From a virus, in IMG/VR virus record IMGVR_UViG_3300003138_000021, positions 1-29,764 of that record: a stretch of DNA of 29,764 nt; one strand, 5' to 3'. The notes beneath the pieces were generated by a model that searched no databases, had not been told where the DNA came from, and saw nothing but the letters and a program-made list of their open reading frames with translations. The position numbers and the translations under genes were made by a program. Below, one piece after another: positions 28,083 through 29,764 of this stretch. Each line of letters begins with the position of its first letter. The first letter of the stretch is position 1.

Positions 28083-29339
28083 ATGTTACGCTTGTTCCTT
28101 GGACCCACCCTGAGTGAGATTTCCATCTTCTCCCGCGCTTATTTTTTAGGGAAGCCCGGCGAACTTGGTTTTGGTGTGGCTGCTGCGCCTGAGAGTGTGT
28201 ATACTGCTGCTGGGTTTATCCCGCTGGAAGGTCACAATACAATAGGCCGCGACAACTATGGAAACTATTTGCACGTTGCTTCTGGTGCTATCTGCGTCTA
28301 CATACCAAAACATTATTACAAAATAGCCGGGAACACGTTCACCTACTCAGATACCGCGGCAGATGGCTATGTACTAGATCGCACATTTATTAATGCTGGC
28401 GCAGAGATTAGGGGCATCTTCGTTTCCAAATACGGTGGCACAAACAATGGCGGTATCTTCTCATCACAGCAAGGGAAAGACCCGCTGTCCACGAATAGTG
28501 CGCACAATCCAATCTCAGCCCTCAACGGTACGCCTTTAAATACTTACGGCGGACTCTATACGGCCGTAAAGACGATGTCAATCGATGCCATTGTCACTCC
28601 AATTTGGACATATAATATGTTGGCCCGTATGGCAAAAGCTCACGGAGAGGCCTCTCTAACGACTGACGTGTGCGCCTACATAGACGTTGTTCCAAAAATG
28701 CCAAAAGGAAACTTGGCAAACGCATTGAAAGACTATAATGACACTAGCGTCACTTTCACTGCTTCAGGATACTCAAATTGTGCATTGACTGGCAGCGGAT
28801 CAAACTTCGCCAAAACCACGCACAACGGCCAAAAATGCGGTATCGCAGACCTGACTGGAAATATGTTTGAAGTTGGAAGCGGTCTCATACGCTTTGATAG
28901 CACTGGCTTCCTCGTCATCAAAGAGTCGGTAGACATCACTACCATCCTAAACGACTCAATCATAACAGGCGGTGGTGGTGCATATGACCGCGATTTATAT
29001 GATGTCATAGACATCTCCGATCTTATCAATACTAATAGCGGATGGACCTACATCGGAAACGGAACGAGTAATGTGTTCGGCTTTTCAACAGATAGAAATT
29101 CAGCTGCATACAAACGAACTTCTGTAGGCATACCGCTTGCAAATGGTGTAAGTGGCAGTGGAACTGCGGAGTTTGGTAACGACGGATTATACAAATACCT
29201 AATAAACGAATTGGCCGCGTTTTGTGGCGGGCATTGGTTCCACTCTTCCGCTGCGGGGCCGTTCGCTATGTTTCTGAGCCATAGCCGTGCGGGCTCGTAC
29301 TACTCTGTGGGGGCGCGCGCCTCTGTGCTTGCGTCATAG
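28083..29339 (+). CDS. DGR target (variable) protein with C-terminal C-type-lectin-like fold
   Basis: 418 residues. The last 120 residues have the FGE/CLec pattern of DGR targets. After FCGGHWFHSSAAGPFAMFLS come HSRAG, SYYSVGARAS and a short tail, which align with the known consensus GGNWNN, AG-x-FA-x-NLNN, R-x-N-S-NNN-x-G-x-R-x-S, with Asn replaced at many sites. An upstream DLTGNMFEVGSGLI is the usual GN-x-[FW]-E motif. The N-terminal 55 residues would attach it to the virion or tail. Base composition is richer in C and T than in neighbouring genes, suggesting acquisition as a module. AAGG precedes the ATG by eight bases. It is likely a virion adhesin, diversified by retro-homing. Confidence 0.88.
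   Translation: MLRLFLGPTLSEISIFSRAYFLGKPGELGFGVAAAPESVYTAAGFIPLEGHNTIGRDNYGNYLHVASGAICVYIPKHYYKIAGNTFTYSDTAADGYVLDRTFINAGAEIRGIFVSKYGGTNNGGIFSSQQGKDPLSTNSAHNPISALNGTPLNTYGGLYTAVKTMSIDAIVTPIWTYNMLARMAKAHGEASLTTDVCAYIDVVPKMPKGNLANALKDYNDTSVTFTASGYSNCALTGSGSNFAKTTHNGQKCGIADLTGNMFEVGSGLIRFDSTGFLVIKESVDITTILNDSIITGGGGAYDRDLYDVIDISDLINTNSGWTYIGNGTSNVFGFSTDRNSAAYKRTSVGIPLANGVSGSGTAEFGNDGLYKYLINELAAFCGGHWFHSSAAGPFAMFLSHSRAGSYYSVGARASVLAS
29220..29336 (+). other. Variable repeat (VR) region of the DGR target
   Basis: Codons 380-418. Only 9 of 117 bases are A, against about one third in neighbouring genes (21 of 60 in 27301-27360). This is the footprint of adenine-specific mutagenesis on the coding strand. 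Positions that are Asn in other DGR targets read His384, Phe386, His387, Ala390, Phe397, Ser399, His400, Gly404, Tyr406, Tyr407 and Ser408. The exact left end needs the template repeat, which is outside the window. Confidence 0.8.
29303..29327 (+). promoter_or_regulatory. IMH-like GC element at the VR end
   Basis: A 13-bp all-G/C run (29309-29321) contains the perfect palindrome GGCGCGCGCC (29312-29321) and is flanked by direct CTCTGTG repeats (29303-29309, 29321-29327). In the Bordetella phage DGR a 14-bp G/C run forms part of the initiation-of-mutagenic-homing site at the 3' end of VR. Confidence 0.6.
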
Positions 29340-29374
29340 TGAGCGGTAGCGAACGAAATGAAAGGTGAGGGAGA

Positions 29375-29764
29375 ATGGGTATTCACAGTGAAGCGATCTT
29401 AAACCGGAAATACATGGAGATGATAAAACTACTCAACATCTATCTCAATCACTTCCCGAGACACGAGAAGTACGCATTGTCAAATACCATTCGCAATACA
29501 GCCTACAGTCTCTATGACCTCATAACGGAGACAAATAAGCGTTATTTCAAAAAGACAACACTCACGGAGCTTGACGTAACGCACCAGAAGCTTCGCATGC
29601 AGATCTACCTTGCCAACGAATTGGGGTACTTCAACTTTAAAAACGGCAAAGAGGATGCTAGCGTGAACGGTGCGCATCGGTTTATCGCCATAGGAAAACT
29701 GATCGACGAGATCGGGAAGATCATCGGGGCGTGGATACATAAGCTCAAGGAGAATGCCAAATGA
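29375..29764 (+). CDS. avd: Avd-like DGR accessory protein
   Basis: 129 residues, four amphipathic helices: about 5-27, 33-58 (HFPRHEKYALSNTIRNTAYS), 64-85 and 100-126. The FPRHEKYALS start of helix 2, Lys/Arg-rich helix faces, and IGKLIDEIGKIIGAWIHKLK at the end match the Avd/four-helix-bundle family. Avd forms a barrel-like pentamer that binds the DGR reverse transcriptase and the template RNA and is needed for cDNA synthesis. GAGGGAGA precedes the ATG. Its stop TGA is the last three bases of the window and overlaps an ATG (ATGA). It lies 35 nt after the target gene. Confidence 0.87.
   Translation: MGIHSEAILNRKYMEMIKLLNIYLNHFPRHEKYALSNTIRNTAYSLYDLITETNKRYFKKTTLTELDVTHQKLRMQIYLANELGYFNFKNGKEDASVNGAHRFIAIGKLIDEIGKIIGAWIHKLKENAK

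Follow-up and report, generated by a model that had tools for sequence, protein, structure and literature searches.

Organization of the right end of the record

The window analysed here is the whole virus record IMGVR_UViG_3300003138_000021, with a length of 29,764 bases. Two open reading frames of the plus strand were confirmed at its right end, at 28083-29339 and 29375-29764, where a preliminary description had placed the left part of a diversity-generating retroelement (DGR). The first encodes the target, or variable, protein (418 residues), which has a C-type-lectin-like fold and is putatively receptor-binding. Its 3′ part holds the core of the variable repeat (VR), 29226-29324, with about 12 variable codons and an approximate 3′ end, and the IMH-like 3′ end of the VR at 29307-29336 (GTGGGGGCGCGCGCCTCT...). 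A candidate target-recognition hairpin, GTGAGC-GGTA-GCGAAC, lies at 29339-29354. The second frame is avd, of full length (129 residues), and its TGA stop codon at 29762-29764 is the right edge of the record. The left edge is also an exact stop codon, TCA at 1-3, of a minus-strand gene. Both edges being stop codons, the record looks like a provirus trimmed at gene borders rather than one that reaches a biological end, and this trimming would account for the lack of the template repeat (TR) and the reverse transcriptase (RT). No RT was found in the 29,764 bases, and no TR was found on either strand when any change at A was allowed, the best match being an A-rich sequence at about 185-284. The single A-biased repeat pair inside the window, 683-740 and 3270-3327, is inverted and unrelated to the VR. 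The fold of the target, the identity of Avd and the signature of the VR all support the preliminary description, and we read 28083-29764 as the target-VR-hairpin-avd half of a DGR, located in the right end of a temperate phage that has a P2-type tail and a Campylobacterota host, with a probability of about 0.93.

The target protein and Avd

No Pfam domain was matched by the 418-residue protein. Its AlphaFold2 model, built from a 33-sequence alignment, had a mean pLDDT of 89.6 and a pTM of 0.91. Foldseek ranked TaqVP first among PDB structures, followed by the Major Tropism Determinant (Mtd) of BPP-1, the formylglycine-generating enzyme and TvpA, which bears out the C-type-lectin type proposed previously. 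The match to TaqVP (5vf4) covered the whole length with an E value of 1e-15, and that to Mtd (1yu3) had an E value of 6e-3. Among viral models the first match was a hypothetical protein of Campylobacter phage CP220, and then came many annotated tail-fibre proteins. Relatives of the target with 50-64% identity adjoin avd within DGRs. By homology and fold, the target is a putative receptor-binding protein.

Two further homologues were observed. Residues 26-351 of the target are about 27% identical to a hypothetical protein of lytic Campylobacter phages of the CP220 group; that protein may be a related receptor-binding protein that has no DGR. Locus L085 has, at 6001-7203, a target 60% identical to that of the window, which neither avd nor a TR, RT or hairpin follows; this is either the scar of an old DGR or a homologue that does not belong to one.

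The 129-residue protein, described previously as an Avd-like four-helix protein, matched Pfam bAvd (PF22296) with an E value of 7e-17 and 62.3 bits, over a cut-off of 40, and PHROG 3206, annotated as Avd protein of DGR, with an E value of 1.7e-20. The match to NCBIfam DivGenRetAVD (1.8e-18) was under the strict cut-off of that model. In an alignment of 39 members, invariant residues were distributed along the full length of the protein.

Adenine-specific divergence of the variable repeat

The VR had been predicted at 29220-29336, and this position was correct within a few bases. The TRs of relatives served as the reference for the VR (33 distinct TRs, picked by overall similarity to the VR of the window and aligned without gaps). 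Among their conserved columns, 22 had at least 80% A and 43 had at least 80% of another base. The VR at 29226-29324 departs from these TRs at 16 of the 22 A columns and at 1 of the 43 others. One of the A columns, 29320, corresponds to a fixed A to C difference between TR and VR of the IMH type, with GACT in TRs and GCCT in VRs of nearly all close relatives. When this column was excluded, the VR differed at 15 of 21 TR adenines and 1 of 43 other positions (p=5e-9), and the bias held with codon positions 1 and 2 only (p=1.6e-7). In-frame asparagine codons of the form AAY are abundant in the TRs of relatives and make up most of the approximately 12 variable codons there; at these AAY codons the window encodes H, H, A, F, S, H, S, G, Y, Y and S. 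In window coordinates, the variable codons are predicted at 29232, 29238, 29241, 29250, 29271, 29277, 29280, 29283, 29292, 29298, 29301 and 29304. Judged by the TRs of relatives rather than by its own, the VR carries the adenine-specific signature of a DGR. By analogy with BPP-1 (PMC3240598), 29307-29336 would act as the IMH.

Template repeat, reverse transcriptase and activity in relatives

When viral contigs were scanned with Avd, 80 loci were retained whose Avd was 43-82% identical over most of its length, and further loci came from a scan with the target (11) and from a scan of genomes (18). Most viral loci contain a repeat pair of 108-122 nt, with one copy at the end of the target and the other, the TR, about 40 nt past avd, and 82-100% of the mismatches between the two fall on TR adenines. 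An open RT frame with the motifs IGNLLSQ and YVDD was found about 200 nt past avd in 86 of the 94 loci having at least 1.4 kb downstream. The YxDD motif that had been anticipated for the RT was therefore seen, as YVDD. The other anticipated motif, QGxxxSP, gave no match in the relatives because the RTs of DGRs carry [IVL]GxxxSQ, here IGNLLSQ. Where Avd was of full length, at least 67% identical, and followed by enough sequence, an RT homologue was present in 38 of 38 loci, counting L034, whose homologue is only partial. Among Avds of at least 67% identity, the three loci in which no RT homologue was found (L063, L081 and L111) each have a truncated avd. TR and RT being the rule in relatives, we infer that in the complete phage they would lie directly to the right of 29764.

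Pairs of nearly identical loci allowed the family to be compared at short distance. L014 and L016 come from different metagenomes but share their TR and RT; they show 17 mismatches in about 4.1 kb, of which 14 are in the VR, all of them (14/14) at TR adenines, and 3 elsewhere. L047 and L049 are identical in avd, TR, RT and the upstream target sequence, and 11 of their 12 differing VR sites are at TR adenines. Since such pairs differ almost only at the VR sites that correspond to TR adenines, the DGR family is active in nature, a statement that applies to the relatives compared, at 52-78% Avd identity to the window.

Other arrangements were seen among the relatives. L013 has a second VR at 6717-6833 (minus strand), in a paralogous target on the opposite strand, which matches the same TR with 16 mismatches, 94% of them at A, and has a G.A-type hairpin of its own; a single DGR would thus appear to serve two targets in opposite orientation. 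After avd in L032 and L068, TR and VR differ, yet few adenines are left in the TR, as if it had been overwritten or had decayed.

A hairpin with tandem G.A mismatches

BPP-1 needs a hairpin just after the VR, with a GC-rich stem of 7-10 bp and a GRNA loop (PMC3240598). In the window the loop GGTA (29345-29348) is on the sense strand, has the GRNA form and lies within the 4-34 bp after the VR described by Guo et al. (PMC3240598). The stem departs from the GC-rich, fully paired type of 7-10 bp, as the third and fourth pairs from the loop are A.G and G.A: it consists of two Watson-Crick pairs at the loop, the tandem A.G/G.A and two more Watson-Crick pairs, with a predicted energy near zero.

The loop is conserved across the family, mostly as GATA or GGTA. 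Of the 82 distinct loci, 45, among them the window, had a tandem A.G/G.A flanked by Watson-Crick pairs and 17 had a fully paired stem, while 0.03 and 0.44, respectively, were expected from shuffled sequence under the same selection rule. L005 has the Watson-Crick form of the stem. Almost all the stems with non-Watson-Crick pairs (45/49) have exactly this tandem, and none of the same loci had the motif on the antisense strand. The flanking pairs covary: 89.6% are paired, and the covariation was 0.717, compared with 0.291 for shuffled sequence and no more than 0.14 for slid controls. On the Avd tree, the distribution of the G.A and fully paired states requires 8 changes, of which at least 3 fall on strongly supported branches. 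In eight phage DGRs taken from annotated records the stems are essentially fully paired. Since a hairpin score based on Watson-Crick pairs alone finds the GRNA site in just 32 of 81 loci, the evidence for the mismatches is taken from the anchored scan and its shuffle control, the covariation and the antisense control.

By nearest-neighbour DNA energies the G.A stems have almost no stability, which argues against a simple stability reading; the motif may instead be read by a protein. Considering that the G.A pairs are possible on the sense strand only, with T.C opposite, recognition of the folded sense strand is suggested. It is possible, and we hold it with less than even confidence, that the target hairpin is recognised as a folded sense strand with tandem sheared G.A pairs and not as a symmetric double-strand cruciform. 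The work on BPP-1 left open the choice between single-strand hairpin and cruciform, and the conserved G.A hairpin offers a natural test of it. No mention of this feature was found in the literature searched.

Phage backbone and host

The proposal of a temperate phage with a lambda-type head and a P2-type tail agrees with the PHROG matches. The head genes comprise terminase, portal and a fused protease-MCP, the contractile tail has gpV, J, I, sheath, tape measure and gpD, and a tyrosine integrase is present. The large terminase subunit, part of the backbone and not of the DGR, lies at 8446-10239 (plus strand; PHROG 15, E 1e-258) and is 77% identical to that of viral record L150. The integrase gene, 5866-6960, is located between the early genes and the terminase and not at a prophage end, an order also seen in L184 and L200. 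A scan of the viral collection with gpD found no relatives.

The Campylobacterota-like host suggested in the preliminary description is favoured by the backbone homologues of prophages. Portal homologues 66, 61 and 52% identical were found in 397 Campylobacterota genomes, against 44% at best in 399 Pseudomonadota genomes used as a control. The nearest named relatives of Avd belong to Sulfurovum, Helicobacteraceae, Sulfurovaceae and Campylobacterales MAGs, and bAvd was above its cut-off in 8 of the 397 Campylobacterota genomes. The host is probably a member of Campylobacterota, as judged from relatives and not from an integration site.

Many relatives have their DGR in the fibre locus. In the window, the tail-fibre locus between gpI and sheath (17583-19921, plus strand) contains fibre genes and no DGR, and the DGR is located after the endolysin. 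The same backbone occurs in another Campylobacterota genome (L200/L201), with no RT in the stretch read, and in a prophage of the Aliarcobacter sp. STC_123 MAG (L184/L185), compared below. Apparently this backbone acquired DGRs repeatedly, and not always in the same place. One Aliarcobacter MAG has, on the same contig, two contractile-tail prophages (L107/L204 and L184/L185), each with a complete DGR, of different lineages.

Alternative explanations

The same evidence was weighed against other readings of the locus. An origin of the right end from host or satellite DNA fused to the phage contig, with a DGR foreign to this phage, would agree with the position of the cassette after the lysis genes, outside the tail-fibre locus that related phages use, and with a GC content of 48% in the target and 45% in avd, compared with 42% in the rest. 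However, the cassette is on the strand of the late operon, the target follows the gene at 27846-28082 without a gap, relatives are phage-borne, and the GC of the VR itself is raised through the loss of adenines; we consider this origin unlikely. Still more improbable is a decayed DGR, in which target and avd were left, RT and TR were lost and the fibre is now fixed. Scars of this kind do occur: L063 and L081 have a truncated avd and no RT, and in L111 the target is intact, avd is cut after about 30 codons and there is no RT. The Avd of the window, however, is of full length, and among relatives at 67% identity or more the loss of RT accompanies truncation of avd, whereas the loci with a full-length Avd described above kept an RT homologue. 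The exact gene ends at both edges of the record also speak for trimming and against decay. The scar of L111 was seen at 7775-9300 in the Arcobacter MAG LH_M16, where the intact target (61% identical) is followed by a shortened avd that is fused to the next tail gene, with TR and RT lost; this scar would leave the fibre fixed.

Least probable, at a level we regard as negligible, is that the 129-residue protein is a 23S rRNA intervening-sequence protein unrelated to DGRs, the resemblance of the target C-terminus being due to chance. The four-helix architecture is common to both families, and 23S_rRNA_IVP (PF05635) does give 27.0 bits on this protein. This is below its gathering cut-off of 33.8, while bAvd is well above its own, so the HMM comparison proposed earlier came out for Avd and the intervening-sequence identity was ruled out. 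The context already refutes it as well, relatives being located between VR and TR, with the RT following.

Proposed mechanism and comparison with known systems

Taking BPP-1 as the model for the cDNA steps, we propose that the intact phage would have a TR of about 110-120 nt, beginning about 40 nt beyond avd, and an RT with IGNLLSQ and YVDD about 200 nt beyond avd. From the TR transcript, Avd and RT would produce cDNA mutagenised at adenines. This cDNA would be substituted for the VR (29226-29324), with the IMH-like 3′ end and the hairpin (29339-29354) directing the replacement. Such replacement would alter the ligand-binding face of the putative receptor-binding protein with its C-type-lectin fold and, hence, host recognition.

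The preliminary description also saw here a new host range for tropism switching, which was overstated: DGRs are present in several public Campylobacterota genomes, and P2-like phages with DGRs, VP58.5 and ACA1, are known. No description of a DGR in a Campylobacterota phage was found in the main texts of the literature searched, and such hosts may already be listed in supplementary tables. DiGReF pools Delta- and Epsilonproteobacteria, with 2.6% of its DGRs, and the main text of Roux et al. 2021 does not name Campylobacterota. The locus adds Campylobacterota to the phage hosts in which DGR-based diversification of receptor-binding proteins can be studied.

With BPP-1 (mtd-avd-TR-brt, PMC3240598) the family of the window shares the order target-VR-hairpin-avd, continued by TR and RT in relatives, the adenine-specific change of the VR, a target of C-type-lectin fold and a GRNA tetraloop after the VR. 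It differs in that the target is TaqVP-like and not Mtd-like, in the tandem G.A mismatches of a stem that in BPP-1 is GC-rich and has 8 bp, and in its contractile P2-type tail and Campylobacterota host. TaqVP of Thermus aquaticus resembles the target in fold along the whole length (TM 0.56-0.61), but with 16% sequence identity, and the protein of the window is phage-borne. The Vibrio phages VHML and VP58.5 and the Pseudoalteromonas phage ACA1 have, like the window, a contractile tail and a DGR with Avd. Their DGRs include an RT and are sited in the tail-fibre locus (in VP58.5 before the sheath gene), their Avd is only 31-39% identical to that of the window and, unlike in the window, the hairpin stem of VP58.5 and ACA1 is fully paired.

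Closer in host is the Helicobacter ganmani prophage BK070120 (L092), a Campylobacterota prophage with a target 35% and an Avd 47% identical and a frame with RT motifs; it has another phage backbone, is not annotated as a DGR and its hairpin is perfectly paired. The Aliarcobacter sp. STC_123 prophage has a collinear backbone (portal 66%, sheath 77%) and a complete DGR with target, avd, TR and RT, but this DGR is of another lineage (Avd 34%) and occupies the fibre locus, immediately ahead of the sheath gene. One phage backbone would thus have gained two DGR lineages, each at its own position in the genome. To the P2-tailed DGR phages already known, the DGR of the window, cut by the end of the record, adds a P2-tailed phage probably of Campylobacterota.
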